Shown: positions 48,873 through 64,000 of the stretch, in pieces
How positions within the stretch are numbered: the stretch's first letter is position 1
Layout of the letters: the number at the start of each line of letters is the position of its first letter
Assembly: GCF_027942295.1 (NCBI RefSeq)
Contig: NZ_CP101416.1
Coordinates: forward strand, 3,892,501-3,956,500
DNA length: 64,000 nucleotides
DNA from: Pseudanabaena sp. Chao 1811
GTDB taxonomy: Bacteria; Cyanobacteriota; Cyanobacteriia; Pseudanabaenales; Pseudanabaenaceae
Direction: 5' to 3'
Position numbers and translations under genes: made by a program
The notes under the pieces: generated by a model
Databases searched by the model: none
The model's input: only the letters and a program-made list of their open reading frames with translations
Told to the model about the DNA's origin: nothing

Positions 48873-48970
48873 GATACGATTGCCTAAATGTTAAGAAATT
48901 TTAATCTCAATATATTTTAGTCCTTTTCTCATCAATCAACGCATATAAGTGCTCAAACCTAATCGAAATT

Positions 48971-49681
48971 CTATATATTCAGTCGGCAGTTCCAATTCTT
49001 AAGGCGATCGCTAACTTTTTCTGATGGATTCACAATCTCCTCTTGGGTTCTGGGACGTAAATATCCATTCCATTGATAATTTAATAAGGCTGCATACTCT
49101 CTTAATACCACTTTGAGTTGCTTGATGGTACTCCATTGCAAAGGTAAAGGTATCATATGAGGAATAACTTTAAAACCATGGTTCTGAAATAAAATTTGCG
49201 CTCGTAGCATGTGAGGTGCATCTGTCAACAACAATATTTTCTGAATTCCCTTCGGATAAAGTAATGCTGTCGTAAACTGGGCATTTTCTTCGGTTGTTTG
49301 CGAACATCTCTCACCACTTATTTGTGACTTAGGAAGTCCTTTTTGTGCTAGCTGGGTAAGTATTTCTTCTGCATCTAACATTCCACTCACAAATAGCATA
49401 GGGGCACGTTTTTGTTCCCAGATTTCAGCACCAAATTCTACTCTTCTAGCTCGTAATGGTTCGCCTCGCCCTAAAATGACAACGGCATCAACTTTTTCAC
49501 CAGAATCTTGCGGCAGAGAAAAAATTAAGCCTTGATTTGCCAAAGCAAGCATCAAAGGAGAGGTTACAAATAGCAAAATTAATCCAATAATAGCGACTGG
49601 TAAAATAACTCGACGTTTCCAAAAGCGAGGACTAATTAGCCAAAGTAACCAGAGAAAAGCAAAAAAAATCAGTGATTCCAT
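48971..49681 (-). CDS. YdcF/DUF218 family protein
   Basis: A 236-residue protein with two N-terminal membrane segments (LIFFAFLWLLWLISPRF, VILPVAIIGLILLFVTSPLM) and a DUF218 domain: DAVVILGRGEPLRARRVEFG, APMLFVSGMLDAEEILTQLA and ILLLTDAPHMLRAQILFQNH. Such proteins (SanA/ElyC-like) have been tied to envelope polysaccharide metabolism. It lies at the 3' side of the autokinase gene in the same direction. Confidence 0.85.
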   Translation of the reverse strand: MESLIFFAFLWLLWLISPRFWKRRVILPVAIIGLILLFVTSPLMLALANQGLIFSLPQDSGEKVDAVVILGRGEPLRARRVEFGAEIWEQKRAPMLFVSGMLDAEEILTQLAQKGLPKSQISGERCSQTTEENAQFTTALLYPKGIQKILLLTDAPHMLRAQILFQNHGFKVIPHMIPLPLQWSTIKQLKVVLREYAALLNYQWNGYLRPRTQEEIVNPSEKVSDRLKNWNCRLNI

Positions 49682-49958: not shown

Positions 49959-52205
49959 CTAATAAAGTTTATAGGTTTCCGTGACACCCGTAACATAATC
50001 TTTTGAACCATTGACAATAATTCCAAATATTCCGATTGGTGAATTACTTAATAGTTCTAGAGCTTGTGTAAGGTTAGATGCTTTAGTCTTATCTAATCCA
50101 ACCACCATAACAATACCATCTGTTCTTGCAGCAATCAGCTTTGAGTCAACTAAACCGAGTAAAGGAGGAGTATCATAAATCACTAAATCAAAGTTTTCCT
50201 GAAATGATTGCATTAAGATCTGCATCTTTTGAGAGGAAAGTAATCTTGTGGGATCTGGCGGAACTTGACCTGAAGTAAGAATTGATAAGTTGGGTTCAAT
50301 TGAAGATCTTTGTACTACTTGATCAAAGTTTAGATCCGTAGATATTAAATTACTAAGTCCTAAAGCATTACTCAGAAGCAATCGATCATGTAATTTCGGA
50401 CGACGCAGATCAGCATCTACCAATAGAACTCGTTTCCCTAAAGCTGCTGCTGCCTGCGCTAAATACAATGAAGTAGTTGATTTACCTTCACTGGGTATGG
50501 ATGAACTAATAACAAGAGAGCGGATTTCTTCATCAGGACTGAGAAGCCGAATATTCGTATAAAGCGATCGAAAAGACTCCAAAAAGATAGAAGTCATATA
50601 GTAGGGTTGGATTGCATTAGAATCTGAGTCTAAGCCTTGATGAGATCGATTTATCCAAGACTTGAAATTCATGATTTTTGTCAGTTTACCAATAGCAGAT
50701 GAAGTTTCGTTCCGCATCAAGCTACGATTTAATGGAATTCCTTCCAAAATTTCATCCGTATCTTCATCAGAATATAAATCTGAATTAAATGGAATTATTC
50801 CTAAAATAGGTAATTTGGCAATATCTTTTACTTCATCCGTTGTTCGTAACAGATTACTCAACCTATCTAGAAATAGAGCTACCCCAGAACCTAGTAATAA
50901 CCCTAGTATGCCACCCAACACTCCATTTTTTTTAATATCGGCTGATGATGATGCAGGATCTTTAGCGGGAGTCAGAATTTGCCAAGGGGTTTTACGTTGT
51001 CCAGCATCAATACGTAAAGCTTCACGTTTGGTTAAAAATTGATTTAAATTCTCGTTGGTGATTTTTATCTCTTGTTGAATATCTGTGTATTGACGGGAGA
51101 TAATTGATAGCTGTTTTACTTGCTGATTGAGCTTATCTTCTACTTCCGACAATATTTCAAGACGGGCTTCTAAATCTCGGATACGGCTGGCAACTAATTC
51201 TTTAGCTCTCTCCTCTTCTAGTCGGAGTAACGGTATCAAATTAGCTCTTTGATCTCGTAATGCTTGGACTCTATCTGTATTTTCCTGAAATATGCTTAAC
51301 TCTTTCGCAATTTGACCATCTACAGTCTGAATTTGGGATAAAATTGCCTGATATCGAGAATTCTCTTGCAGTATAGAGGAAACTTTGGTTTCATTGACTG
51401 GTTCAGCAACTTGACGACTTAAATCAGAAAATAGCGATCGCAATTCATCTAACTTGACTTGGGTTTCCAGTTTCTGTTGACTAATGGTAGTGGTTTCAGA
51501 AGCTAGTTGTTTGCTGCTTGAATCTGGATCAATGAGATTGTACTGTTGCCGAAAAGTCTGGAGCTTATCCTGAAGCTTTCCTGCTCTTTCTTGGACTTGA
51601 GGCAGTTGAGAATTGACAAAGTCAATTCCTTGTTGCACATCAGACAATCGTTCTTCCAAACTATAGTCAAGATAAGCCTTAGACAGTAAATCAAGAACTG
51701 CCTTAACCTTTGCTGAGTTTTTATCTTGGTAACTAACGCTGAGAATCTGATTTTCGGCTTTAATTGCTAATCCATCGACTAAACTATCGTAATTAATATC
51801 TGGGTACTTTGACTTTAACGCTTCAGAAATTGGATTGAGAATTTTAGGACTTTTTAATAGTTTTAATGTAGTAGGGCTAATAGTGTCTTTAGGTTCTTCT
51901 GTATCCCTATTGTTAAGTGTTACAGCAGAAATCACTCGGGTCTCTTCAGTAATTGGCTTGGCTAAAATTTCAAACCCTGATTGATAAATTGGTTTACTAG
52001 TAGCCGATTTAAATACAGCTAAAGAAGTAACTACAATAGTTACACCTGCAATTACAGGTAATCTGCGTTGTAAAGATTGCAGTACATTTCCAAATTTCAA
52101 TCCTCCTTCATCATCGTTGAGTGATGCACTAGACACGTTAGTACTTAAAACACGTTTAACATCACTTTTTTGATGATATATCTGAGAATTCTGTTCACTT
52201 TGCAT
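49959..52205 (-). CDS. Polysaccharide co-polymerase/tyrosine autokinase (Wzc-like)
   Basis: A 748-residue protein that controls chain length and export of capsule or exopolysaccharide. A Wzz domain with one membrane helix comes first (LPVIAGVTIVVTSLAVFKSA), then a long coiled coil (about 200-430), a second helix (GVLGGILGLLLGSGVALFLD) and a BY-kinase domain with Walker A SSSIPSEGKSTTSLYLA, Walker A' VLLVDADLRRPKLH and Walker B LVIYDTPPLLGLVD. The C-terminus holds tyrosines (VTGVTETYKLY) that are likely autophosphorylation sites. I use the ATG at 52205, preceded by CGGAA, over a TTG at 52253. Confidence 0.93.
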   Translation of the reverse strand: MQSEQNSQIYHQKSDVKRVLSTNVSSASLNDDEGGLKFGNVLQSLQRRLPVIAGVTIVVTSLAVFKSATSKPIYQSGFEILAKPITEETRVISAVTLNNRDTEEPKDTISPTTLKLLKSPKILNPISEALKSKYPDINYDSLVDGLAIKAENQILSVSYQDKNSAKVKAVLDLLSKAYLDYSLEERLSDVQQGIDFVNSQLPQVQERAGKLQDKLQTFRQQYNLIDPDSSSKQLASETTTISQQKLETQVKLDELRSLFSDLSRQVAEPVNETKVSSILQENSRYQAILSQIQTVDGQIAKELSIFQENTDRVQALRDQRANLIPLLRLEEERAKELVASRIRDLEARLEILSEVEDKLNQQVKQLSIISRQYTDIQQEIKITNENLNQFLTKREALRIDAGQRKTPWQILTPAKDPASSSADIKKNGVLGGILGLLLGSGVALFLDRLSNLLRTTDEVKDIAKLPILGIIPFNSDLYSDEDTDEILEGIPLNRSLMRNETSSAIGKLTKIMNFKSWINRSHQGLDSDSNAIQPYYMTSIFLESFRSLYTNIRLLSPDEEIRSLVISSSIPSEGKSTTSLYLAQAAAALGKRVLLVDADLRRPKLHDRLLLSNALGLSNLISTDLNFDQVVQRSSIEPNLSILTSGQVPPDPTRLLSSQKMQILMQSFQENFDLVIYDTPPLLGLVDSKLIAARTDGIVMVVGLDKTKASNLTQALELLSNSPIGIFGIIVNGSKDYVTGVTETYKLY

Positions 52206-52420
52206 GTTTGTTTCCGTGCATATGCGGATTATGTGGTTAATTCTGGTGCTCAATCAATAGCGATCACGAGCTATTACCCACTCCGTATTGTAAATGCTCA
52301 AAGAATAGAATCTAGTTTAACTCATACAAACTTGGCTCTAATTTACGGCAGTACGATTGCTTAAGTCAAGACTTCAAATTGTATAGACAAGCACAATTAG
52401 GACAACAACATCAACAAATA

Positions 52421-53197
52421 TTAGCTTTTTATCTGATTCTCCTTTGAGAAAACAATCTGCTTAAGCATTAGCCAAATAAAAATTGGGATAGTCGTAGCAT
52501 AGCGTTTCCAGAGTCTCTTTGGTTCTTGACAAAGGCGAAATAACCACTCCAATCCGAGATTTTGCATTAATTTTGGAGTTTCTTTTAAGATTCCTGCATA
52601 AACAGGGAAAACACCGCCTACTCCAATCATGACAGCTTGGATTTTATCCTTATGTTGATTCATCCATAATTCCTGTTTAGGGCATCCTAGTGCAACGAAT
52701 AAAACTCCTGCTCCACTCTCATTAATAGTATTCACCATATCCATGTCTACTGTAGAAGCTAATGGACGGAATGGAGGGGATTCAGTACCTGCGATCTTTA
52801 TAGTGGGAAATTGTAATTTTAGTCTCTGGCTAATTTTATCAAGTACTTCAGGAGATGAACCTAAGAGGAAAATGCTCGTTTGTGCGATCGCAGCTTGCTG
52901 GCAAACTGTCTGAAAAATATCCATGCCCGCAACTCGCTGAGCCTGCTTGTGTCCTAGCGACTTTAGCATCCAAACTAAGGGCATTCCGTCTGGTGTAACT
53001 AAATCTGCCTGTTTTAATACATTCGCAAAGTGATTATTTTGCCAAGCTTCAACTAGCATATGCACATTAGCAACACAAACCATCCTGCTTTGCTTTTGGT
53101 TTGCCCAACTTACCATCAGATTGATTTGTTCATCAAAGAGCAAAGTTGATACTGGAGTAACAATTAAGTCTTGTTTAGGGATGTCATCTGTATACAT
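52421..53197 (-). CDS. WecG/TagA/CpsF family glycosyltransferase
   Basis: A 258-residue GT26 enzyme. Signatures are VCVANVHMLVEAWQNNHFAN, VTPDGMPLVWMLKSLGHKQA, the FLLGSSPEVL stretch, VLFVALGCPKQELWMNQHKD and MIGVGGVFPVYAGIL. It acts early in lipid-linked glycan assembly. It lies upstream of the autokinase gene on the same strand (216 bp apart), as expected for a polysaccharide operon. It differs clearly from the WecG-like protein at 22995-23750. Confidence 0.92.
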   Translation of the reverse strand: MYTDDIPKQDLIVTPVSTLLFDEQINLMVSWANQKQSRMVCVANVHMLVEAWQNNHFANVLKQADLVTPDGMPLVWMLKSLGHKQAQRVAGMDIFQTVCQQAAIAQTSIFLLGSSPEVLDKISQRLKLQFPTIKIAGTESPPFRPLASTVDMDMVNTINESGAGVLFVALGCPKQELWMNQHKDKIQAVMIGVGGVFPVYAGILKETPKLMQNLGLEWLFRLCQEPKRLWKRYATTIPIFIWLMLKQIVFSKENQIKS

Positions 53198-53870
53198 TTG
53201 TAAAATCTTCTTGTATAAAGCAATAAACTTGTCTCGTAAAGTAGAAAATTGCAGGAGTTTGTGTAAACAATCATTTCCAGAGTTTAGCAGCTTAAATATA
53301 TCGCTATTTCTTGGTGACTTTAAACCCTTATCCTGCTATTTTAAGCATCTAATTATATAAATAGCAAAAGAGATTAGTTTTTCTTTACATCACTATACAA
53401 GGTTTCTGAATTGATGTTGATAGCTAGTTAAAGGCTATATTTATCCATATTTAATTAAAACACAAGACATTATATAACTTTATAACTTTTCCATAACTCT
53501 TTTATAACTTTCAAGATATTGATAGCCATCAGCGGGTTTCATTTGCTACCTTTTATGTTGTATTTCTACGCACCTTAGAATAAGGGCAAAGGTTGACTTA
53601 CAGCTATTCCTATAGCAGCTATTTTTGAAAATTATTCAGCGTTACGCAAAATACTAAATATTTGGTGTATAGTGATTCCTATGATTTAGGATTAAGTATT
53701 GTATTAATTCATCTTGTAGATCATAATCTAACTTGTGCTTAATACTCATGTTAGTAAAAAGTGCCAGTTGCATTAAAAATGTATTTTTCTGTACAGATTT
53801 AAAATGTATTATCTCTGACAACTGTATCCTTAAATTTAAATATATTAAGTAATTTTAGAGGTGGGCTTCG
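53198..53870. other. Long AT-rich divergent region of the polysaccharide locus
   Basis: This 673-bp AT-rich gap separates the two arms of the polysaccharide locus. On the minus strand an exact TATAAT lies at 53357-53352, a possible -10 for wecG-autokinase with a leader of about 150 nt. On the plus strand AGAGGTG precedes the ATG at 53871. I see no gene, repeat or palindrome. It is a likely site for regulation of the locus. Confidence 0.45.
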
Positions 53871-54377
53871 ATGGTCTTTATTGATCTCAGTCCCTTCAAG
53901 ATAATCTTCCCATTTTTGCTTTATTCTTTGATGGTGAGGGAGGTCAAATTGCAGAGAAGGTGTGACAAAAATCGAAAACGCTCAAAACGTCGAGCCATTT
54001 ATTGTCCAATTCACGGATGTTATCTTGATAGTGTTAGTCCCAAATATCCTCTATTTGCTGATCGTGCTGAGCAGCTACAACAGCGAGGTATGCCACGCCA
54101 AAATGCCTTGATGCTTGTAGCAAGTCGAATAGCTGTACCTCTGGATGGAGAATGGATTGAGGCTTTTTGGTGTGACCAGTGTCAGCAAACAAATTGGTAT
54201 CACGTATGTAAAGGTGAGGATCGCACTTTTCGTGTTTTGATTGCACCATACGAGCTTTGGCAATATGTGACAGGGGCTATTTCGCCTGATGGCAATCCAT
54301 CCGTTGGCGAGTTTACTCGTAAAAATGCCCGAATGGTTGACTATAGTGGGATTAAAGATTTTCATTTTGTAGTCTAA
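53871..54377 (+). CDS. Conserved hypothetical zinc-ribbon-like protein
   Basis: A 168-residue protein. The N-terminus is hydrophobic (LSPFKIIFPFLLYSLMV), then a strongly basic part (KLQRRCDKNRKRSKRRAIYC), then pairs CPIHGC and CDQC that could bind a metal. The rest contains WYHVCKGEDRTFRVLIAPYE. The family is unknown to me. The ATG at 53871 has AGAGGTG about nine bases upstream; an ATG at 53931 has no such site. It lies 66 bp before rfbG and may belong to the glycan operon. Confidence 0.65.
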   Translation: MVFIDLSPFKIIFPFLLYSLMVREVKLQRRCDKNRKRSKRRAIYCPIHGCYLDSVSPKYPLFADRAEQLQQRGMPRQNALMLVASRIAVPLDGEWIEAFWCDQCQQTNWYHVCKGEDRTFRVLIAPYELWQYVTGAISPDGNPSVGEFTRKNARMVDYSGIKDFHFVV

Positions 54378-54443
54378 ATGGATTCAGTATTAGTGTTCTC
54401 ACCAGCCATATATTAATTAGGTGAGTTAAAAGTAAATAGATCT

Positions 54444-55514
54444 ATGAATAGTGCCTTTTGGAATGGAAAACGAGTATTACTGACAGGGCATACTGGCTTT
54501 AAAGGGAGTTGGTTATCTTTGTGGCTACAATCTGTTGGTGTTGATTTATGGGGATATGCATTGCAGCCACCTACAGATCCTAGTTTGTTTGAACTTGCTC
54601 GTGTAGCAGAAGGGATGAATTCTGTGATAGGAGATGTTTGCGATCGCGAGCATTTACAGAAGGTTATTGCTGAGTGTAAGCCCGAAATAGTGATCCATAT
54701 GGCAGCCCAATCAGTAGTCCGCTCTTCCTATACTGATCCTGTATCCACTTACAGTACAAATGTGATGGGAACTGTCAACCTCTTAGAAGCAATCCGTCAG
54801 GTGGGTGGTGTTCGAGTCGTGGTCAATGTTACTACAGACAAATGTTATGAAAATAAAGAATGGGTCTGGGGATATCGCGAGAATGATCCCTTGGGTGGTT
54901 ATGATCCCTACAGTAGCAGTAAAGCTTGCTCGGAATTAGTTACATCTTCTTATCGGGATTCATTTTTTCATCCTAGCGAATATGCTAACCATGGTGTAGC
55001 GATCGCATCTGCTCGTGCGGGTAATGTCATTGGTGGTGGTGATTGGACACCTGACGGGCTAGTGGCTGACATTACTAAATCATTACTAAGCAAGCAGCCA
55101 ATTTTAATTCGTAATCCCTATGCAACTCGCCCTTGGCAACATGTACTAGATGCCTTAAATGGCTATTTAGTCCTAGTAGAAAAGCTCTACAATAACGGTT
55201 CTGCTTTTGCTGATGCTTGGAATTTTGGTCCTTACGAGTCCTCAATCAAGCCAGTTGGTTGGCTAGTAGATCAACTACTATCTCTATGGGGAGAAAATGT
55301 TTATTGGGAACAAGATAAAGGCTATCAGCCCCATGAAGCTAACTCCCTAAGTTTAGATTGCTCAAAAGCACGTCTTAAAATGGGATGGGAACCGAAATTG
55401 TCTCTTATAGAAGCTTTAGAACAAATTATCGTGTGGACTAGATCCTATCACTCAGGGGAAGATATGCAGGAAATTACGAAAGCTGCAATTCATAGATTTA
55501 TGGCAATTATTTAA
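54444..55514 (+). CDS. rfbG: CDP-glucose 4,6-dehydratase (RfbG)
   Basis: A 356-residue extended SDR that converts CDP-glucose to CDP-4-keto-6-deoxyglucose. It starts NSAFWNGKRVLLTGHTGFKG with the NAD-binding motif. The catalytic YxxxK is YSSSK in YDPYSSSKACSELV. The TRPWQHVLDALNGYLVLVEK segment is typical of RfbG. It starts the sugar part of the plus-strand operon; its partner rfbF lies 3.4 kb downstream rather than adjacent. Confidence 0.93.
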   Translation: MNSAFWNGKRVLLTGHTGFKGSWLSLWLQSVGVDLWGYALQPPTDPSLFELARVAEGMNSVIGDVCDREHLQKVIAECKPEIVIHMAAQSVVRSSYTDPVSTYSTNVMGTVNLLEAIRQVGGVRVVVNVTTDKCYENKEWVWGYRENDPLGGYDPYSSSKACSELVTSSYRDSFFHPSEYANHGVAIASARAGNVIGGGDWTPDGLVADITKSLLSKQPILIRNPYATRPWQHVLDALNGYLVLVEKLYNNGSAFADAWNFGPYESSIKPVGWLVDQLLSLWGENVYWEQDKGYQPHEANSLSLDCSKARLKMGWEPKLSLIEALEQIIVWTRSYHSGEDMQEITKAAIHRFMAII

Positions 55515-55566
55515 TTGTGTAATAGGTAGTAAACTAACCAGTCAATTGTTTATTTAGAGGTAGCCA

Positions 55567-56847
55567 ATGAGCAAACATTCCGAGACATCGAACTCAATAG
55601 AGAAACAACTGAGTAAAACACCTAAATGCCAATTTTGTGGTTCGGGCTTGAAGCATACCCTAGTTGATCTGGGAATGTCACCACTATGCGAGAGCTTTTT
55701 AACTTCAGAACAACTTAATCAAATGGAAGCATTTTATCCATTACATGTTCGAGTGTGCGAAAACTGCTTTTTAGCTCAATTGGAAGCATATGTTAGTCCA
55801 GAACATATATTTACAGAATATGCCTACTTTTCTTCTTATGCAGATACTTGGTTAAAACAATGCAAGGAATATACAGATCAAGTTGTTGAACAGTTCCATC
55901 TTAATGAAAATAGTCAAGTAATTGAGATCGCTAGTAATGATGGATATCTTCTGCAATACTTTGTTGAGAAAAATATCCCTGTGCTTGGAGTTGAGCCTGC
56001 GACTAACATTGCGAAAGTTGCGATCGCTAAAGGTATTCCCACTTTAAATGAATTCTTTGGGCAAGAATGTGCGCGTAAACTAGTTCAACAAGGTAAGCAA
56101 GCCGATTTAATTGCCGCAAACAATGTGTTAGCACATGTACCAGATTTAAACGATTTTGTTGCAGGGATCAAGATTTTGCTTAAGCCCCAAGGTGTTGCTA
56201 CGGGAGAAATTCAACATCTGGTGAAATTGATGGCATCTAACCAATTTGACACAATTTATCATGAGCATTTCTGCTATCACACATTTACGACTCTCGAAAA
56301 AATCTTTGCCGCGCATGGTTTAACCCTGTTTGATGTGGAAGAGTTACCAACTCATGGTGGCTCCTTAAGGATTTATGCCCGTCATGCCGAGGACTTATCA
56401 AAACCAATTAGCGATCGCGCAGTAAAATTGAAAGAGCATGAAAGATCCGATGGCTTCGCTTCCATTGAACGCTACACCAATTTTGATGAACAAGTTCGAG
56501 AAACTAAGAGGAAATTACTCGACTTTTTGATTAAAGCTAAGCGTGAAGGAAAAACTGTCGTTGGCTATGGTGCACCGGGTAAAGGTAACACATTGCTTAA
56601 TTATTGTGGCATTCGGACAGACTTTCTAGATTACACAGTTGATCGCAATCCCTATAAGCATGGCAAGTTTTTGCCAGGAACCCACATTCCCATCTATTCT
56701 CCTAGCAAGATTCAAGAAACCAAGCCAGACTATGTAATGATTTTGCCTTGGAACTTTAAAGACGAAATCATTGAACAAATGAGTGTAATTCGGGATTGGG
56801 GGGGCCAGTTTGTGGTTCCAATTCCTGAAATCCAAATTTATTCCTAA
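55567..56847 (+). CDS. Sugar-nucleotide C-methyltransferase (NovU/TylCIII type)
   Basis: A 426-residue class I methyltransferase with an N-terminal zinc-binding part (CQFCGSGLKHTLVDLGMSPL, VRVCENCFLAQL), an S-adenosylmethionine fold (VIEIASNDGYLLQYFVEKNI, VLGVEPATNIAKVA) and a C-terminal partner domain (TVVGYGAPGKGNTLLNYCGI). Homologues methylate a sugar carbon on NDP-keto-deoxysugars. Together with rfbF and rfbG it suggests a branched or C-methylated CDP-deoxysugar. GAGGTAG precedes the start. No HIP1 site was found downstream of about 56.4 kb until 62.36 kb. Confidence 0.92.
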   Translation: MSKHSETSNSIEKQLSKTPKCQFCGSGLKHTLVDLGMSPLCESFLTSEQLNQMEAFYPLHVRVCENCFLAQLEAYVSPEHIFTEYAYFSSYADTWLKQCKEYTDQVVEQFHLNENSQVIEIASNDGYLLQYFVEKNIPVLGVEPATNIAKVAIAKGIPTLNEFFGQECARKLVQQGKQADLIAANNVLAHVPDLNDFVAGIKILLKPQGVATGEIQHLVKLMASNQFDTIYHEHFCYHTFTTLEKIFAAHGLTLFDVEELPTHGGSLRIYARHAEDLSKPISDRAVKLKEHERSDGFASIERYTNFDEQVRETKRKLLDFLIKAKREGKTVVGYGAPGKGNTLLNYCGIRTDFLDYTVDRNPYKHGKFLPGTHIPIYSPSKIQETKPDYVMILPWNFKDEIIEQMSVIRDWGGQFVVPIPEIQIYS

Positions 56848-56854
56848 GGTATAA

Positions 56855-57403
56855 ATGCTATTCACACAGACCGATCTAGAAGGTGCTTACATTGTTGAGC
56901 CAGAAAAACTGAATGATAATCGCGGATATTTTGCACGTACTTGGTGTCAGAAAGAGTTTCAAATTCGAAACCTTGATGCCAACTTAGTACAATGTAGTAT
57001 TTCTTTTAACAAAAAAAAGGGAACACTAAGAGGAATGCATTTACAACTCCCTCCATCCGCGGAAACAAAGCTTGTAAGATGTACAAGAGGGTCAGTCTAT
57101 GACGTTATTATAGATCTCCGATTAGACTCTACAACCTATTTACAGTGGATAGCTATTACCCTTACCGCTGACAATAGTAAAGCTCTATATATCCCAAAAG
57201 GCTTTGCTCATGGATTTCAAACATTGGAAGATAACACAGAAATCTTTTATCAAATGTCTGATTTTTATAGCCCTACTTGTGCTGTTGGTTTTCGCTGGAA
57301 TGATCCAGCATTCAAGATTCATTGGTTAGAAGAAATTAGTGTTATATCTGAGCGTGATCAGCAATATAAAGATTACACCCCAGCAATACTTCTAGATATT
57401 TAG
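56855..57403 (+). CDS. rfbC: dTDP-4-dehydrorhamnose 3,5-epimerase family (RfbC-like)
   Basis: A 182-residue cupin-type epimerase: LNDNRGYFARTWCQKEF, the catalytic-region KKGTLRGMHLQLPPSAETKL, VRCTRGSVYDVIIDLRLDS and LYIPKGFAHGFQTLED. Length fits RfbC. With no dTDP-glucose genes (rfbA, rfbB, rfbD) nearby, and CDP-sugar genes on both sides, it may act on a CDP-4-keto-deoxysugar. It starts seven bases past the methyltransferase stop with an AAGG site. Confidence 0.9.
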   Translation: MLFTQTDLEGAYIVEPEKLNDNRGYFARTWCQKEFQIRNLDANLVQCSISFNKKKGTLRGMHLQLPPSAETKLVRCTRGSVYDVIIDLRLDSTTYLQWIAITLTADNSKALYIPKGFAHGFQTLEDNTEIFYQMSDFYSPTCAVGFRWNDPAFKIHWLEEISVISERDQQYKDYTPAILLDI

Positions 57404-57465
57404 GACGCTAATACTTGTTAGATTCTTAGAAGTAATGAATTTTGCAACAGTTTAAACTTGTAGAT

Positions 57466-58800
57466 ATGGCTAACAAATTGGAAAATCAAATACATACAAC
57501 ACATCAAATTGGATTAAATATATATGAACTCATTTCAGAGCTATATCCAATTTGTCGGAGTATAACTGGCAATGGGGTTCGCAAATCACTAAATATATTA
57601 AAAAAATACATTCCATTAGAAATCCATGAAATTCCCACAGGGACAAAAGTATTTGATTGGGAAATCCCCAAAGAGTGGAATGTTCGGGATGCTTATGTAA
57701 AAAATCAATATGGACAGAAAGTTATTGATTTTCAGAAGTCCAACCTTCATTTAGTTAACTACAGTATCCCAATTCATCAAACAATGTCTTTGGCAGATTT
57801 AAGTAAACATCTGTTTACACTTCCTGATCATCCTCATTGGATTCCCTATCGAACTTCTTACTATCATGAGAATTGGGGCTTTTGTCTTAGCTACAATGAT
57901 TTTACAAACTTTGAAGATGGCGAATACGAGGTTTACATTGATTCTTCTCTTCAAGATGGACATCTGACCTATGGAGAATATTACTTGTCTGGGGAAACTG
58001 ATGAAGAAGTTCTATTTTCATGCCATATCTGCCATCCATCTCTTTGTAATGACAATTTATCAGGTATGGCTTTAGCAACATTTTTAGCCAAACATATTAA
58101 TTCTTTCCCAAGACGATATTCTTATAGATTTATCTTTATCCCTGGCACAATTGGTTCAATCACTTGGCTTAGTTTAAATGAGAGTCAAACTCATAAAATA
58201 AGGCATGGACTAGTAATATCAGGCGTTGGAGATAGTGGCAGCATGACCTATAAACAAAGTCGCCAAGGTAATGCAGAAATTGATAAAATTGTTGCTCATG
58301 TCTTGCAGGATTTAGACAAACACTACACTATTGAAGAGTTTTCTCCATATGGTTATGATGAAAGGCAATACTGCTCTCCTGGTTTTAATTTGCCAATTGG
58401 TAGACTAGGTAGAACCCCTTTTGGGTGCTATCCTGAATATCATACATCGGCTGACAATTTAGAGTTTGTTAAACTTAATTCCTTAGAGGAATCTTGGATA
58501 GCTTACCTTAATATTTTTGAAATTCTAGAAAACAATAAAGTGTATTTGAATACAAACTCTAAATGCGAACCTCAGTTAGGTAAACGAGGTTTGTATGGAA
58601 GTTTAGGCGGTTTACAAGATAAAAAAATCCAAGAAATGGCACTACTATGGGTACTTAATTTTTCGGATGGTGATCATACTTTATTAGATATAGCTACCAG
58701 ATCTAAGCTCAAGTTTAAGTTAATATTAAAAGCGTCAATTTCTTTGTTAAAAGCTGGACTGTTACAAGAACGCAATAGAGATATTACTAATAGTAAATAG
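57466..58800 (+). CDS. DUF4910 aminopeptidase-like protein
   Basis: A 444-residue protein of the DUF4910 family (with a DUF2172-like insert and a C-terminal winged helix). Likely zinc ligands lie in CHICHPSLCNDNLSGMAL and GCYPEYHTSADNLEFV, an M28-like arrangement. The region after 370 (YGSLGGLQDKKIQEMALLWV) is the winged-helix part. Such genes turn up in bacterial glycan loci, but their reaction is not known. I use the ATG at 57466 (MANKLENQIH), because the earlier TTG at 57442 is poor. Confidence 0.87.
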   Translation: MANKLENQIHTTHQIGLNIYELISELYPICRSITGNGVRKSLNILKKYIPLEIHEIPTGTKVFDWEIPKEWNVRDAYVKNQYGQKVIDFQKSNLHLVNYSIPIHQTMSLADLSKHLFTLPDHPHWIPYRTSYYHENWGFCLSYNDFTNFEDGEYEVYIDSSLQDGHLTYGEYYLSGETDEEVLFSCHICHPSLCNDNLSGMALATFLAKHINSFPRRYSYRFIFIPGTIGSITWLSLNESQTHKIRHGLVISGVGDSGSMTYKQSRQGNAEIDKIVAHVLQDLDKHYTIEEFSPYGYDERQYCSPGFNLPIGRLGRTPFGCYPEYHTSADNLEFVKLNSLEESWIAYLNIFEILENNKVYLNTNSKCEPQLGKRGLYGSLGGLQDKKIQEMALLWVLNFSDGDHTLLDIATRSKLKFKLILKASISLLKAGLLQERNRDITNSK

Positions 58801-58886
58801 TTATTAATATTTAAATATAAATTCTATTTATTAAGTCAAAATTTGCAAAAATTCAACTATCTATCTATTTATCATTTTCATTTATT

Positions 58887-59669
58887 ATGAAAGTTGTACT
58901 ATTTTGTGGTGGTCTTGGTACTAGATTAAAAGAATATTCTGAAACTATTCCAAAGCCTATGGTCGAGATTGGTTATCGTCCTATTATTTGGCATTTAATG
59001 CGCTACTATGCTCATTTTGGGCATAAAGAATTCATTCTATGTCTTGGTTACAGGGGGGACTATATCAAAAAATATTTTCTGGATTACAACGAATGTATGT
59101 CAAATAATTTCACAATATCTGAAGGGGGTAAAAAAATTGAGCTACATACTAGTGATATTGAGGATTGGAAAATTACATTTGTTGATACGGGCTTAAATGC
59201 AAATCTGGGACAACGTTTAGTAGCTGTCAAAAAAATCTTAGCAGGAGAAGAGGTTTTCTTAGCAAACTATTCAGATGGTCTTACTGATCTTAACCTTGAT
59301 TTATATCTTGACAACTTTTGCAAGCATGATAAAGTTGCAAGCTTTTTGGCTGTACAACCATCTCAATCTTTTCATGTTGTCTCATGGAATAAGGATGAAC
59401 TAGTTGAAAGTATTAAACCTGTTGGTAATTCTGGATTGTGGATTAATGGAGGCTTTTTTGCTTTTAAACAATCAATTTTTGATTATATTCAAGAGCAAGA
59501 AGAGCTAGTAATTGAGCCATTTCAAAGATTGATTCAAAAACAAGAGATAATCGCATATAAAAATCAAGGCTTTTGGGCTTGTATGGATACCTTTAAAGAA
59601 AAGAATATGTTTGATGAGATGTATGCAAAAGGTAATACTCCATGGGCTGTCTGGGATACTTCGCGTTAA
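58887..59669 (+). CDS. rfbF: Glucose-1-phosphate cytidylyltransferase (RfbF)
   Basis: A 260-residue nucleotidyltransferase that makes CDP-glucose. It begins MKVVLFCGGLGTRLKEYSET with the nucleotide-binding loop, followed by IPKPMVEIGYRPIIWHLMRY, then GFWACMDTFKEK near the C-terminus. It supplies the substrate for RfbG upstream. The gap before it is AT-rich with no ribosome-binding site. Confidence 0.93.
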   Translation: MKVVLFCGGLGTRLKEYSETIPKPMVEIGYRPIIWHLMRYYAHFGHKEFILCLGYRGDYIKKYFLDYNECMSNNFTISEGGKKIELHTSDIEDWKITFVDTGLNANLGQRLVAVKKILAGEEVFLANYSDGLTDLNLDLYLDNFCKHDKVASFLAVQPSQSFHVVSWNKDELVESIKPVGNSGLWINGGFFAFKQSIFDYIQEQEELVIEPFQRLIQKQEIIAYKNQGFWACMDTFKEKNMFDEMYAKGNTPWAVWDTSR

Positions 59670-59710
59670 TAAATATTAGTATGATTTTTTTTGGGAGAAC
59701 CTACCTTTCT

Positions 59711-60847
59711 ATGCTTAAAAAGCTACCAAGAGTTGCTTTTCTTTTGCACAATATTGATAGTGGGGGTGTAGAAAGAGTAGCTATTAACCTTCTTAAAGAA
59801 CTTGTTAAATATCCTATATCAATAGATCTAGTACTATTTGAGAAGAAGGGCAATTTTTTAAACGAAACCCCACCTGAGGTAAGAATTGTTGATTTGTCTA
59901 GCACAAGTTCTGGGAGGCTAAGGAAAATATTTCCTTTAGTTAAGTACCTTCGGCGGGAAAAGCCGTCTGTACTAGTTTCTAAGCTAGTACAATTTAATGT
60001 TATTGCTATAATCGCCAAGTTCTTTTCATTCATTCCATTACATATTCTTTTAGTAGAACACCTTAGTTTTGATTCTTTAGAAAATAAGATTAAAAATGAT
60101 CCCAAAGAAAAAATTGGTTTTCTCAATCAATTAAGAAAGATTTTTTATCCTAAAGCTAATGTAGTCGCCGCAGTTTCTCAAGGTTTAGCGCAAGCTTTAG
60201 AAAAAGACTTAAACATGAAAACGGGAACATTTAGGGTGCTTTATAACCCTGTTATTGATAAAAATCTAGTTACTAAGTCTCAATTGCCTGTCGAGCATCC
60301 TTGGTTTGAGTTTGGACAGCCACCAGTTTTTTTAGCTGCTGGAAGACTAGCACCTCAAAAAGATTTTCTTACACTAATTAAAGCTTTCGCTATTTTTCGG
60401 CAGAAGTACACTGCCCGATTAGTAATTTTAGGGGAAGGACCTGAACGCCAGATTTTAGAAGCTGAAATATCTCGACTAAATTTAGAGGCTGATGTTGCGT
60501 TACTCGGATTTACAGATAATCCTTATGCTTATATGAGTAAAGCTTCTGCATTTATTCTTTCTTCTCGCTTTGAAGCATTGCCAACAGTTTTGATTGAAGC
60601 GTTAGCTTGCGGATGTCAAGTAATTGCTACAGATTGTCCCTATGGTCCCAATGAAATATTAGTGAATGGCAAGTATGGAAAGTTAGTTAGTGTTGGTAAT
60701 ACTGATGAGCTAGCTGATGCAATAGAAAAAACCCTTGATAGTCCTATTGATCCTCAGCTTTTAAAGCTACGCGCCTATGATTTTAATTCTAAAAATGCAG
60801 TTGTGGAATATTTAAAAGCAATGAATTTAGATTACTTACTTGAATAA
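59711..60847 (+). CDS. GT4-type glycosyltransferase
   Basis: A 378-residue glycosyltransferase with the GT-B fold: RVAFLLHNIDSGGVERVAIN at the N-terminus and GRLAPQKDFLTLIKAFAIFR, VILGEGPERQILEAEISRLN and SSRFEALPTVLIEALACGCQ at the C-terminus, with the E-x7-E motif. It retains the anomeric configuration of the donor sugar. The start is uncertain; I chose the ATG at 59711 (MLKKLPRVAF) since a longer frame from 59642 overlaps rfbF. Confidence 0.9.
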   Translation: MLKKLPRVAFLLHNIDSGGVERVAINLLKELVKYPISIDLVLFEKKGNFLNETPPEVRIVDLSSTSSGRLRKIFPLVKYLRREKPSVLVSKLVQFNVIAIIAKFFSFIPLHILLVEHLSFDSLENKIKNDPKEKIGFLNQLRKIFYPKANVVAAVSQGLAQALEKDLNMKTGTFRVLYNPVIDKNLVTKSQLPVEHPWFEFGQPPVFLAAGRLAPQKDFLTLIKAFAIFRQKYTARLVILGEGPERQILEAEISRLNLEADVALLGFTDNPYAYMSKASAFILSSRFEALPTVLIEALACGCQVIATDCPYGPNEILVNGKYGKLVSVGNTDELADAIEKTLDSPIDPQLLKLRAYDFNSKNAVVEYLKAMNLDYLLE

Positions 60848-60960
60848 TATGTTGAAGATGTTTATGATGATTTAATGGATAAAAAGTTTTGGATAAGATG
60901 ATAAAACTAATTGATCTACTAAATAATAAATTCTAAAACCTTTCAAGAAATAAACAAGTT

Positions 60961-61929
60961 ATGCCTAAAGTTAGTATCGTTATCGTAAATTACAATTATG
61001 GCAAGTACCTAGATGAACGTATTAGAACAATATTGAATCAATCCTATAGAGACTTTGAGCTAATTATTATTGATAACGGTTCAACTGATAATAGTGTAGA
61101 AGTAATTAATCGTTACATATCTGACACTAGAGTACTCCCCAAATTTTATCCTGAAAATGATTTGCCTTTTAAACGTTGGAATGAGGCATTGAACTCAGCA
61201 ACTGGAGATTATTTCCTAATTACGGCTGCAGATGATAGTTCTTATCCAGCTTTATTGGAAAAAACAGTTGAGAAGTTAGATAAACATCCTTCTGTTGGAA
61301 TAGCATTTTCTCAATCTTGGGATATTGATGATCAAGGTAAACAATTACGTTCATGGAAAGAATGGACTGATAATTTAGATAAGGAACGTTGGGCAAAAGA
61401 CTTTATTGATGACGGAAAAAATGAATGTCAGTACCTTCTCTTTCAGTGTACTATTCCTAATCCTAGTGCTGCTTTGATAAGACGTACTGTATTTTTAGAA
61501 GCAGGAAAATTTGATACAAGTTTTCGATATCTAGCAGACTGGATGCTCTGGGTGAAAATGCTTTTGATTTCAGATATTGCATTTATATCTGAACCTCTAA
61601 ATAACTTTAGAACTCATACAGGATCGTTAACAAATGCCACAAGACAATCACTAGAATTTGAGGAAAGAGTAAGGATTATCAACTATCTATATATTAATAT
61701 AAAAGCTACAGATGAAACTTGGGAAGCTGTTTATAATCAAACCATTGGATATTGGTCGAATTTAATTTTAGAGAATAAAATTTCATTTGATAAAAGCAAG
61801 AAAATTTATAATATCTTGCAATCTATGGATCAAAATTTAAACTATAGATTAGCTAGACATCTGATTAAATATGGTTGGAGAAATTTTATAGATATGTTTA
61901 GTTATAAGACGGTCAATATCAAGGAGTAA
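60961..61929 (+). CDS. GT2 glycosyltransferase, first of a tandem pair
   Basis: A 322-residue GT-A enzyme: VSIVIVNYNYGKYLDERIRT at the start, IIIDNGSTDNSVEVINRY, an acidic TAADDSSYPALLEKTVEK and the C-terminal LADWMLWVKMLLISDIAF. It shares most of its core pattern with the next gene, including NECQ, TIPN and EPLNNFRTHT, so the pair arose by tandem duplication. The donor sugar is unknown. Confidence 0.9.
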   Translation: MPKVSIVIVNYNYGKYLDERIRTILNQSYRDFELIIIDNGSTDNSVEVINRYISDTRVLPKFYPENDLPFKRWNEALNSATGDYFLITAADDSSYPALLEKTVEKLDKHPSVGIAFSQSWDIDDQGKQLRSWKEWTDNLDKERWAKDFIDDGKNECQYLLFQCTIPNPSAALIRRTVFLEAGKFDTSFRYLADWMLWVKMLLISDIAFISEPLNNFRTHTGSLTNATRQSLEFEERVRIINYLYINIKATDETWEAVYNQTIGYWSNLILENKISFDKSKKIYNILQSMDQNLNYRLARHLIKYGWRNFIDMFSYKTVNIKE

Positions 61930-61936
61930 ATACTAT

Positions 61937-62878
61937 ATGACAAAAGTTAGTGTGATTATTCCTAACTATAACCATGCAAGGTTTCTAGAAAAGCGTATTC
62001 ATACTGTTCTACAACAAACCTATCAAGATTTTGAAGTCATATGTTTAGATGATGCTTCAACAGATGAAAGCAATTATATAATTGCTAAGTTTTCAGATAA
62101 TCACAGGGTTCAGACAATTTATAATACTGTCAATAGTGGTTCTCCTTTTAAACAGTGGGAAAAAGGTTTACAGGTTGCTAATGGAGAATATATTTGGATT
62201 GCTGAGTCAGATGACTATGCTGATTTGAGATTTTTAGACAAACTAGTACCTATTCTTGAGCAAAATCCAAATATTGGTTTAGTTTATTCCCAGTCTTTAG
62301 GGGTTGATGAAAATGATCATGTGATTCGTAATTGGAAAATATGGACAGATGATCTAGATAGCGATCGCTGGTCACATAACTTTATTAATAGTGGACGTAA
62401 CGAATGTCAGAATTATCTAATCTTTAAAAACACAATTCCTAATGCTAGCGCTGTACTTATGAGACGATCAGTTCTAGATAAAATTGGGAAGATTGATACT
62501 CAAATGCGATTGGCTGGAGATTGGTTACTCTGGGCAAAAATGTTAACAATTTCAGATATCGCTTTTGTTGCCGAACCTTTGAATAATTTTAGGACCCATA
62601 CTAACGTAGTGAGGAATACAAGTAAACCATATTTAGAGTTGGAAGAAAGGCTTCAGGTAGTTCACTATATTTCTCAACAAATAGATGTCCCTCATGGTTT
62701 TTGGGACATAGTTTTTATTCCATCAATTGGATGGTGGATGAGGATGTTGTTCCGTGGTGAAATTCCTTTAAGTAGAAGTCACAAAATTTATCAATCACTA
62801 AAAAATATTGATCCAAATATAAACTGTCGTCTGTTTACAATATTTTTCAAAACGCTAAAAAATAAATTATCTTTATGA
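61937..62878 (+). CDS. GT2 glycosyltransferase, second of a tandem pair
   Basis: A 313-residue paralogue of the preceding protein: VSVIIPNYNHARFLEKRIHT, VICLDDASTDESNYIIAKF, WIAESDDYADLRFLDKLVPI, GDWLLWAKMLTISDIAFVAE. The metal-binding region is SDD here, against ADD in the first. It begins seven bases after the first gene with an AGGAG site. The only HIP1 site between 56.42 kb and the end of the window that I saw lies inside it, near 62360. Confidence 0.9.
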   Translation: MTKVSVIIPNYNHARFLEKRIHTVLQQTYQDFEVICLDDASTDESNYIIAKFSDNHRVQTIYNTVNSGSPFKQWEKGLQVANGEYIWIAESDDYADLRFLDKLVPILEQNPNIGLVYSQSLGVDENDHVIRNWKIWTDDLDSDRWSHNFINSGRNECQNYLIFKNTIPNASAVLMRRSVLDKIGKIDTQMRLAGDWLLWAKMLTISDIAFVAEPLNNFRTHTNVVRNTSKPYLELEERLQVVHYISQQIDVPHGFWDIVFIPSIGWWMRMLFRGEIPLSRSHKIYQSLKNIDPNINCRLFTIFFKTLKNKLSL

Positions 62879-62923
62879 AATTAAATTCTAAGGATTTTAT
62901 TGATTGTAATCTCTTGAATAACT

Positions 62924-63583
62924 ATGCTCCCATTAAAATTTGATTCACAAGGAAAAAATTCTCTTCACCAAGTTCTTTGCCTAGGTGCTCATAGTGATGA
63001 TATTGAAATCGGTTGTAGTGGGACGTTACTTAAACTTATTGATCAATTTCCAGATATAAGCATTTACTGGGTTGTATTTGGGGCTAATGAGCAAAGGAAA
63101 GAAGAGGCTCTTGCTAGTGCCTATGCTTTATTAAAAGATGTCAAAAATAAAACAATCTTGATTAAAGATTTTAGAGATCGATTTTTTCCTTATATTGGTG
63201 CAGAAATCAAAGATTTTTTTGATCATTTCACTAAAGATGTATCTCCAGATTTAGTTCTAACTCACTATCACAAAGACTTACATCAAGATCATCGACTAAT
63301 TTCTGATTTGACTTTGAATGCATTTCGAGATCATATGATTTTGGAATACGAAATCCCAAAATATGATGGTGATCTAGGTAATCCCAATTTTTTTGTTCAT
63401 TTAGACCCTGTAATTTACCAGAAAAAAATTAACCATCTAATACAATATTTTAAAACCCAAGCTAACAAACAATGGTTCACAGAAGAAACATTTTCTTCTA
63501 TCTTGAGATTGCGTGGAATTCAATCAAATGCACCAGACAAATATGCAGAGGCTTTTTACTTGCGAAAAGCAATTTTTCTCTAA
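62924..63583 (+). CDS. PIG-L/LmbE family deacetylase
   Basis: A 219-residue zinc deacetylase of the PIG-L/LmbE family: VLCLGAHSDDIEIGCSGTLL carries the conserved His-x-x-Asp-Asp, and LTHYHKDLHQDHRLISDL the second zinc histidine. These remove acetyl groups from GlcNAc-type sugars, so it may deacetylate a hexosamine of the surface glycan. It follows the GT2 pair in the same direction. Confidence 0.88.
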   Translation: MLPLKFDSQGKNSLHQVLCLGAHSDDIEIGCSGTLLKLIDQFPDISIYWVVFGANEQRKEEALASAYALLKDVKNKTILIKDFRDRFFPYIGAEIKDFFDHFTKDVSPDLVLTHYHKDLHQDHRLISDLTLNAFRDHMILEYEIPKYDGDLGNPNFFVHLDPVIYQKKINHLIQYFKTQANKQWFTEETFSSILRLRGIQSNAPDKYAEAFYLRKAIFL

Positions 63584-63720
63584 GGTTCAAATTTTGTGGT
63601 TAGCCTAAACCAACCAATAAAGCTACTCTGATTATTTTAAAACAGCTTTATTAACATTAACATTAATATTGAGACTTGCCATATAACATAACTTGCCATG
63701 TAATATATAGGCTTAATTAT

Positions 63721-64000
63721 ATGAATCGTCCAAAAAGTCAAATTGGATTTCTTGATGAGATGAGAGGAATTGCAATACTTTCTGTGTTCCTATTTCATTC
63801 ACTCCAAGCTGCTTGTGGGCGAGATCAATTGCCTTGGGGAGACTGGTTTAGAAGCTTTAATGTATCGAATGCATTTCTATCTTTATTACCCCTCAGCTTA
63901 GGATGGGCTGGAGTTCCCATATTTTTCGTTGTTAGTGGCTTTTGCATTCATCTCAGTTTTATGCGAAATCCAGATTGGCGCGATTTTTTCATTCGCCGAT
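63721..64000 (+). CDS. Acyltransferase family 3 (OafA-like), cut by window end
   Basis: The ATG at 63721 opens a frame that continues past the window. The 93 residues seen include IGFLDEMRGIAILSVFLFHS and LGWAGVPIFFVVSGFCIHLS, the first two membrane helices of the acyltransferase-3 family, with the conserved Arg (R of MRG) and His (FHS). Such proteins O-acetylate polysaccharides. It is the last gene seen of the glycan operon. Confidence 0.87.
   Translation, partial: MNRPKSQIGFLDEMRGIAILSVFLFHSLQAACGRDQLPWGDWFRSFNVSNAFLSLLPLSLGWAGVPIFFVVSGFCIHLSFMRNPDWRDFFIRR

Follow-up and report, generated by a model that had tools for sequence, protein, structure and literature searches.

An AT-rich stretch without HIP1 in Pseudanabaena sp. 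Chao 1811, probably part of a surface-polysaccharide locus exchanged as a large unit

The window, i.e. the whole 64,000-nt stretch of the Pseudanabaena sp. Chao 1811 genome (G000) analysed here, carries at its right the beginning of a putative surface-polysaccharide locus of roughly 48 kb (~48.95–96.6 kb on the numbering of the window), with export predicted from gene families. The left edge of the exchanged locus (48,924–49,300, no strand) lies between a PucC-like and a DUF218 gene, where identity to the close relative G020 falls from ~95% to ~76%. The first gene inside codes for a DUF218 (YdcF-like) protein (48,971–49,681, minus strand, PF02698), followed on the same strand by a chain-length/tyrosine-kinase-type protein with AAA_31 domain (49,959–52,253, PF13614), named Wzc-like by resemblance, and a WecG/TagA/CpsF glycosyltransferase (52,421–53,197, PF03808). 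A module without counterpart in G020 occupies positions 53,204–64,000 (no strand) of the window; its full span is 53,203–65,182, with the right end outside the window.

The genes of the module listed here are coded on the plus strand. A 168-aa ORF (53,871–54,377) has no Pfam match, and its copy in G095, a genome from another genus, is 74% identical. It is followed by RfbG, a CDP-glucose 4,6-dehydratase (54,444–55,514, TIGR02622 with 487 bits, cut-off 278), a sugar C-methyltransferase (55,567–56,847, PF08421, PF13489, and PF08484), and an RfbC/RmlC-like 3,5-epimerase (56,855–57,403, TIGR01221 with 170 bits, cut-off 156). The next product is a metallopeptidase-like DUF4910 protein with DUF2172 and winged helix (57,442–58,800, PF16254, PF09940, and PF16221); DUF4910 core, DUF2172 insert, and HTH_47 all score above cut-off, which places it in the DUF4910 (CA_C2195) family, and 3k9t matches it end to end (E 3e-189). 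A sugar-1-phosphate nucleotidyltransferase (58,887–59,669) is the sole match in G000 at E 1e-10 or better; with 240 bits to TIGR02623 it is below the cut-off of 300 for RfbF proper (glucose-1-phosphate cytidylyltransferase), and is thus called RfbF-like. Three glycosyltransferases follow: GT4 (59,642–60,847, PF00534 and PF13692), GT2a (60,961–61,929, PF00535), in which conservation to the congener G021 is confined to the first ~60 residues, and GT2b (61,937–62,878, PF00535). Last come a PIG-L deacetylase (62,924–63,583, PF02585) and an acyltransferase 3 gene (63,676–64,000, PF01757), which continues to 64,836 beyond the window and whose counterpart was not found in G021. No known RNA family reached the gathering threshold between 48 and 64 kb. 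Gene families and neighbourhoods suggest that the most likely product of the module is a CDP-linked, C-methylated 6-deoxysugar destined for a cell-surface glycan.

The G000 genome has 7,470 copies of the octamer HIP1 (GCGATCGC), of which 90 fall in the window; shuffled sequences average 0.65. The first-pass annotation had described an AT-rich part of the locus free of HIP1, and this description is accurate. The longest HIP1 gap of the window is at 56,419–62,360 (no strand, 5,942 bp), adjoined on the right by the PIG-L gene. The copy on its left border (56,411–56,418) is the second of two in the C-methyltransferase gene, the RfbG gene also bearing two, and the copy on its right (62,361–62,368) lies in the GT2b gene. 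Neither CGATCG nor HIP1 with one mismatch occurs in the gap, while GATC is as frequent as expected (19 seen, 18.8 expected). The G+C content is 0.336, compared with 0.435 over positions 1–49,700, and the AT-rich block extends past the gap to ~66.0 kb, with a single HIP1 in the extension. The codon bias noted earlier is real as well: GC3 of the genes from rfbC to PIG-L is 0.21–0.27, and among 254 background ORFs 14 do not exceed 0.28.

With 90 sites placed uniformly, a gap this long has a probability of 0.013. HIP1 density in G000 drops with G+C content, from 2.1 per kb at 0.46–0.50 to 0.5–0.7 per kb at 0.30–0.36 (428 one-kb bins outside the locus). When GC-matched DNA of G000 is taken as reference, about 3.3 copies are expected in the gap and none is seen, with P(0) of ~0.035, a raw value uncorrected although the gap was picked as the longest; none of 12 windows at G+C 0.30–0.35 had zero HIP1. 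The gap itself is real but, given the composition, HIP1 in it is only mildly low.

HIP1 counts by gene family account for a part of the gap. In 27 named cyanobacterial loci the RfbF-like gene has one HIP1 in 20.8 kb, and in seven genomes none against 6.6 expected (these sums include G000, leave out G021 as a near copy, and come from mutually related genes). The PIG-L gene has one HIP1 in 16.2 kb (25 named loci) and three against 5.5 expected in the seven genomes; general HIP1 poverty across cyanobacteria is stated here for the RfbF-like gene and not for PIG-L. The RfbF-like gene cannot account for the HIP1 lack of the whole slice. The DUF4910 gene carries 0.70 HIP1 per kb in 41 named cyanobacterial loci, so gene identity fails to explain why that of G000 has none. 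A HIP1-compatible tripeptide is absent from the products of the rfbC, DUF4910, RfbF-like, GT4, and GT2a genes. Peptide constraint alone as the cause is weakened, as this reasoning is in part circular: any HIP1 copy would bring such tripeptides with it.

The flanks in G020 are ~95% identical to G000 and the locus between them 74–88% per kb where alignable, with steps in the identity profile at both ends. A close relative with a diverged allele framed by conserved flanks is the mark of an exchangeable locus. Alignment to G020 gives no hit of at least 120 bp for the 12-kb module, and 1,184 bp with G+C content of 0.269 stand in its place; they contain no ORF of at least 120 aa and a 51-bp relic of the module (84%). 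From this relic the lack of the module looks like a deletion, though it could have another cause. The empty site in nearest relatives expected of a recent xenologue was not found, the G020 gap bearing a relic and G021 having the slice itself.

In G021 the same slice is present (88–92% DNA identity where alignable), and its HIP1-free run is bounded by the same two HIP1 sites. Over 86 kb, 102 HIP1 sites are common to G000 and G021, while 12 and 18 are unshared, so at most ~0.8–1.2 gains per lineage are due in 5.9 kb; HIP1 turnover is slow. These alignments show that the stretch was already in place when G000 and G021 split. The lack of HIP1 had been read as recent acquisition from outside; with the same slice between the same borders in G021, "recent" is not supported. 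A transfer of the locus to G021 from the G000 lineage after the split is opposed by the equal divergence of slice and core.

G095 is largely collinear with G000 over 53.9–96.6 kb (43 kb), HIP1-bearing genes included, which is against the HIP1-free slice as an imported unit on its own. Amino acid identity of 25 locus pairs is 75.7% on average and that of 28 background pairs 67.4% (p 2.5e-4); of 52 background pairs in total, 24 below 55% (possible paralogues) were dropped, making the comparison more cautious. The greater likeness of the locus could be due to conservation instead of exchange. In the aligned genes from rfbC to PIG-L (4.15 kb), G000 has no HIP1 and G095 two, with none shared; in the rest of the locus (27.9 kb) 13 are common. 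In G155, a 12.2-kb HIP1-free run crosses the same module. The DUF4910 gene was found in two of 26 genomes of the genus, G291 presumably being among those searched.

Trees were computed with rows drawn from DUF4910 neighbourhoods and a genome scan (best 80 of at least 564 relatives), and a second RfbG tree without L126. For DUF4910, C-methyltransferase, RfbF-like, RfbC, RfbG, and PIG-L the nearest neighbours are rows from cyanobacteria, in some cases of other families, and this speaks against import from outside cyanobacteria. The clade of the window DUF4910 has 18 rows, including a long-branched KSB1 row, with three Chloroflexota rows beside it; for RfbC, the smallest well-supported larger set takes in Nitrospirota and Chloroflexota rows. 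The module C-methyltransferase (p-AU 4e-57) and RfbG (p-AU 3e-5) stand apart from the congeners' own homologues, while a test of the RfbF-like gene as a single clade with congeners gave no significant result (p 0.095). The first-pass annotation had proposed trees of rfbC, DUF4910, and rfbF, among others, as a check; these three give an outside origin no clear support. What is supported of its acquisition reading is the accessory nature of the genes, by the rarity of DUF4910, these two module trees, and the gene content of three other long HIP1 gaps. A plasmid vehicle was also considered, but all 42 plasmid records matching DUF4910 are below 60% identity.

More probably (about 0.65), the stretch without HIP1 represents the AT-rich section of a module for sugar modification, set in a ~48-kb surface-polysaccharide locus exchanged as a large unit, probably within cyanobacteria and before the split of G000 and G021. 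The locus would be swapped between related cyanobacteria, with crossovers, according to the identity profile, falling in homologous core DNA, i.e. the PucC-like gene on the left and RmlC/RmlB-like genes on the right. HIP1-poor genes would remain so, HIP1 gain being very slow, and 0.8 kb of the stretch belongs to the generally poor RfbF-like gene. HIP1 would thus be lacking mainly because AT-rich DNA in G000 has few copies and gains are slow. With such a low GC-matched expectation and slow gain, the gap is no marker of recent arrival.

The genes from rfbC to PIG-L may possibly stem from a HIP1-poor source and have joined an ancestral form of the locus before its copies in G000 and G095 diverged, the gap being the surviving trace. 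The HIP1-free run of G155 is in line with this, as are the sums in the seven genomes, with one HIP1 against 24.6 expected for DUF4910, RfbF-like, and GT2 genes and 14 against 17.7 for RfbG and C-methyltransferase, but these genes are related to one another, G000 among them. The absence of shared sites with G095 in 4.15 kb points the same way, although with only ~1.9 expected there it is weak. DUF4910 has normal HIP1 density in the 41 named cyanobacterial loci, and the RfbF-like gene, poor everywhere, needs no import. A further-reaching version is rather doubtful: that HIP1 gaps are long-lived scars, the genes having travelled with the locus from one cyanobacterial family to another and kept their HIP1 poverty while genera diverged, so that gaps would tell origin and not recency, and that the linked RfbF-like/PIG-L pair represents a second, distinct DUF4910 sugar-pathway branch with an undescribed product.

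Recent acquisition of the stretch from a donor that is poor in HIP1 and foreign to the lineage is very improbable. It would suit the zero HIP1, the low GC3, and DUF4910 in two of 26 congeners, but is largely refuted by G021, and collinearity of the whole locus with G095, cyanobacterial nearest rows, and the HIP1 copies in the module's own RfbG and C-methyltransferase genes are also against it. Other long gaps of G000 speak for it. A 740-kb sample from this chromosome contains five HIP1-free runs of 4.5 kb or more, headed by those of 10.2 kb (L020) and 5.8 kb (L016), and a 6.8-kb run lies directly left of the window (L003). Transposases, an integrase, or a restriction subunit were found inside the three inspected for gene content, a set without the gaps of L005 and L223. 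Long HIP1 gaps in G000 thus tend to mark foreign DNA, which counts against the exchange of a large unit as explanation, as does the HIP1 count of the gap, still low after GC matching.

Capsule and O-antigen loci are exchangeable between conserved flanks, e.g., the cps locus of pneumococci, one end of which carries rml genes. The G000 locus resembles them in its diverged allele between near-identical flanks, in modules gained and lost inside, and in the RmlC/RmlB-like genes at one edge, but its host is a cyanobacterium, and polymer and exporter are predicted from gene families. It offers a clear case, within one genus of cyanobacteria, of apparent allele exchange across a large surface-polysaccharide locus, and through such loci recognition by phages and grazers may change.

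In Synechococcus elongatus PCC 7942, HIP1 scarcity joined to unusual codon use has been read as a sign of recent xenology (PMC3025956). The G000 stretch also lacks HIP1 and has unusual codon use, but here relatives show that it is not recent. It is common to two species with the same borders, in a locus common to two genera; HIP1 scarcity therefore has to be judged against controls matched in composition and in gene, and gives no date for a transfer. Sugar-modification neighbourhoods have been described for DUF4910 (CA_C2195), in a set naming cyanobacteria and Nitrospirae (PMC4000134), and the window DUF4910 likewise adjoins sugar-modification genes; it belongs to a version with an RfbF-like gene and PIG-L. 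Among 80 named DUF4910 loci, C-methyltransferase is present in 65 and RfbC in 59.

The HIP1 word (GCGATCGC) occurs in 90 copies in the window, where 0.65 are expected, and in 7,470 copies in the 4.73-Mb genome of Pseudanabaena sp. Chao 1811. None was found between 56,419 and 62,360, which confirms the absence of HIP1 from 56.42–62.36 kb reported in the first-pass annotation; no other gap in the window is as long. The AT-richness of the DNA and codons of the same genes was also correctly described, as the stretch has G+C content of 0.336 and GC3 is 0.21–0.27 for the genes from rfbC to PIG-L. With 90 sites placed uniformly, a gap of such length has a probability of 0.013. HIP1 density depends on G+C content, ranging from about 2 per kb down to 0.5–0.7 per kb in 428 one-kb bins outside the locus. 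According to the fitted curve, 3.3 HIP1 are expected in the stretch; the observed zero is lower than composition predicts, with P(0) of 0.035 before any correction for having picked the longest gap. Among 888 overlapping windows of 5,942 bp in a 740-kb sample, 7 lacked HIP1; these included none of the 12 windows with G+C content of 0.30–0.35 (mean 2.75 HIP1) and four of the 20 with 0.35–0.37. The gap is real and mildly unusual.

The stretch lies in a module of about 12 kb (53.2–65.2 kb) within a probable surface-polysaccharide locus (about 48.95–96.6 kb). From 54.4 kb, the module encodes RfbG, a sugar C-methyltransferase, an RfbC/RmlC-like epimerase, a DUF4910 protein, and an RfbF-like nucleotidyltransferase, followed by GT4, two GT2, PIG-L deacetylase, and acyltransferase. 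To the left are WecG-type, Wzc-like, and DUF218 genes, and to the right are ABC transporter, GMC oxidoreductase, sugar dehydratase/epimerase-type, UbiA-type transferase, and GT4 genes, with RmlC-like and RmlB-like genes beginning at 96.7 kb. The DUF4910 protein matches the solved structure of CA_C2195 (3k9t), for which a role in modified surface carbohydrate was proposed and peptidase activity doubted by the authors of the structure (PMC4000134). C-methyltransferase accompanies DUF4910 in 65 and RfbC in 59 out of 80 named loci, and RfbF is absent from 14. The RfbF-like (58887–59669) and PIG-L (62924–63583) genes are linked, judged over these 80 loci: PIG-L is located directly downstream, on the same strand and within 2.6 kb, in 34 out of 36 loci with RfbF of the window's type (>50% identity) and in none of the 30 loci whose RfbF is of the other type. 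The RfbF-like gene, for which no second genomic match with E ≤ 1e-10 was found, may supply a CDP-sugar used by RfbG; the methyltransferase and epimerase would modify this sugar, and PIG-L would deacetylate a sugar of the same pathway.

The scarcity of HIP1 was originally read as a sign of recent import. All three other long HIP1 gaps opened on the same chromosome do hold mobile or restriction genes: two Mutator-type transposases and a DDE transposase in L003:12790-19630, an integrase, a VapE-like protein, and a Mutator-type transposase, with an adjoining asparaginase-like gene, in L020:8147-18338, and a type I restriction subunit in L016:8736-14501 (shorter gaps of the same sample are in stretches L005 and L223). 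The published use of HIP1 scarcity pairs the lack of HIP1 with codon use, and selection can produce the same lack (PMC3025956). Against recent import stands the congener G021, the only other of 26 genomes of the genus with DUF4910. The locus is collinear in both genomes, and the slice is 88–92% identical at DNA level, except for an unalignable part at 61,182–61,917 in the first GT2 gene; core flanks are 92–94% identical. In both genomes the HIP1-free run is bounded by the same two HIP1 sites, the left one lying in the C-methyltransferase gene, 844 bases from its start, and the right one in the second GT2 gene. Because G021 has the aligned slice and both bounding sites, the slice is older than the split of the two genomes, and the acquisition was not recent in this sense. 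HIP1 turnover is also slow, as an 86-kb alignment with G021 has 102 sites common to both genomes, 12 restricted to Chao 1811, and 18 restricted to G021. If all unshared sites are counted as gains, 5.9 kb would have gained at most about 0.8–1.2 HIP1 per lineage since the split.

Two differences from G021 were observed inside the module. The first GT2 protein (60961–61929) is 83–97% identical over about 60 residues and then 13–63%, with adjoining genes near 90%, which looks like within-gene recombination changing the rest of the enzyme. The acyltransferase gene (63676–64000, extending to 64,836 outside the window) is missing at the same place in G021, a change since the split.

Low G+C content explains the larger part of the HIP1 lack, since the expectation drops from 8.3 at window density to 3.3 after G+C correction. 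Gene identity explains some of it, because the RfbF-like gene is HIP1-poor across cyanobacterial loci, with one HIP1 in 20.8 kb (27 named loci) and none versus 6.6 expected in seven genomes. Results differ among the remaining genes. DUF4910 has one HIP1 versus 11.1 expected in seven genomes and 0.70 per kb in 41 named loci, close to 0.79 per kb of the rest. No HIP1 was found in GT2 (6.9 expected, six genomes) or RfbC (2.3 expected, three genomes), and one was found in GT4 (3.3 expected, two genomes). PIG-L, outside the gap, has one HIP1 in 16.2 kb (25 named loci) and three versus 5.5 expected in seven genomes. The whole module has 0.56 HIP1 per kb versus 0.80 outside it (31 named loci). Two contigs, of G298 (L085) and G157 (L087) as judged by length, are common to the seven-genome and named-locus sets. 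As the per-gene counts are mixed, an old HIP1-poor source of the genes is possible. The genome of G155, from another family, has about 0.94 HIP1 per kb overall; in it, a 12.2-kb run spanning the same module (L075:6073-18296) is free of HIP1.

Trees were computed for DUF4910, RfbG, C-methyltransferase, RfbC, RfbF-like, and PIG-L, using rows that all belong to neighbourhoods of DUF4910, taken as the best 80 of at least 564 relatives. The DUF4910 protein was grouped with that of G021 and then G155 (support 82), and among the listed rows several cyanobacterial families make up the surrounding set; the larger set also contains one long-branched KSB1 row and has three Chloroflexota rows as neighbours. 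After G021, the nearest rows are G095, from another genus of the same family, for RfbG, C-methyltransferase, and RfbC, a Leptolyngbyaceae row for RfbF-like, and, among those listed, G123 and G161 for PIG-L. One clade with the congeners' own genes was rejected for RfbG (p-AU 3e-5) and C-methyltransferase (p-AU 4e-57), and was not significantly rejected for RfbF (p 0.095). A source outside cyanobacteria finds no support in these trees, where nearest rows are cyanobacterial, and transfer within cyanobacteria is likely.

Genes matching 53.9–96.6 kb have largely the same order in G095, with 50–87% aa identity; one gene, at 94.2 kb, is placed elsewhere in the G095 locus, and no separate G095 match was found for three module genes, those of GT4, the second GT2, and the acyltransferase. 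Mean aa identity is 75.7% for 25 locus pairs and 56.3% for 52 reciprocal pairs elsewhere; the locus is also higher than the 28 of these 52 pairs with at least 55% identity (mean 67.4%, p 2.5e-4). These values favour an exchange between genera that involved the entire locus, and stronger conservation of locus genes is a possible alternative. In 27.9 kb of aligned locus genes outside rfbC–PIG-L, the two genomes have 13 HIP1 in common, with 17 more restricted to Chao 1811 and 11 to G095. The rfbC–PIG-L genes, 4.15 kb in alignment, have no HIP1 in Chao 1811 and two in G095. The UbiA-type gene is present in four out of 26 congeners, in one case with identity of only 60%, and the right part of the locus is therefore patchy as well.

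In core DNA the congener G020 is nearer to Chao 1811 than G021 is (66 informative sites versus 31 and 26; 4,620 columns, outgroup G188). Even so, from about 48.95 to 96.6 kb its identity is only 74–88% per kb where alignable, with unalignable stretches at 53–65, 82–87, and about 93 kb, and the identity steps at both locus ends span 0.3–0.4 kb. This profile points to a probable exchange of the locus. The module (53.2–65.2 kb) is missing from G020 and replaced by 1,184 bp with G+C content of 0.269, without any ORF of at least 120 aa on either strand; 51 bp of it are 84% identical to 53,458–53,508. Because both G021 and G095 have the module, its absence is read as a deletion from the allele of G020. 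The locus has another variable slot at L066:1643-9856 (G020:C3:313643-321857): where Chao 1811 has 1.2 kb, G020 has roughly 8 kb, which is AT-rich and contains acyltransferase-like and membrane-protein ORFs of its own.
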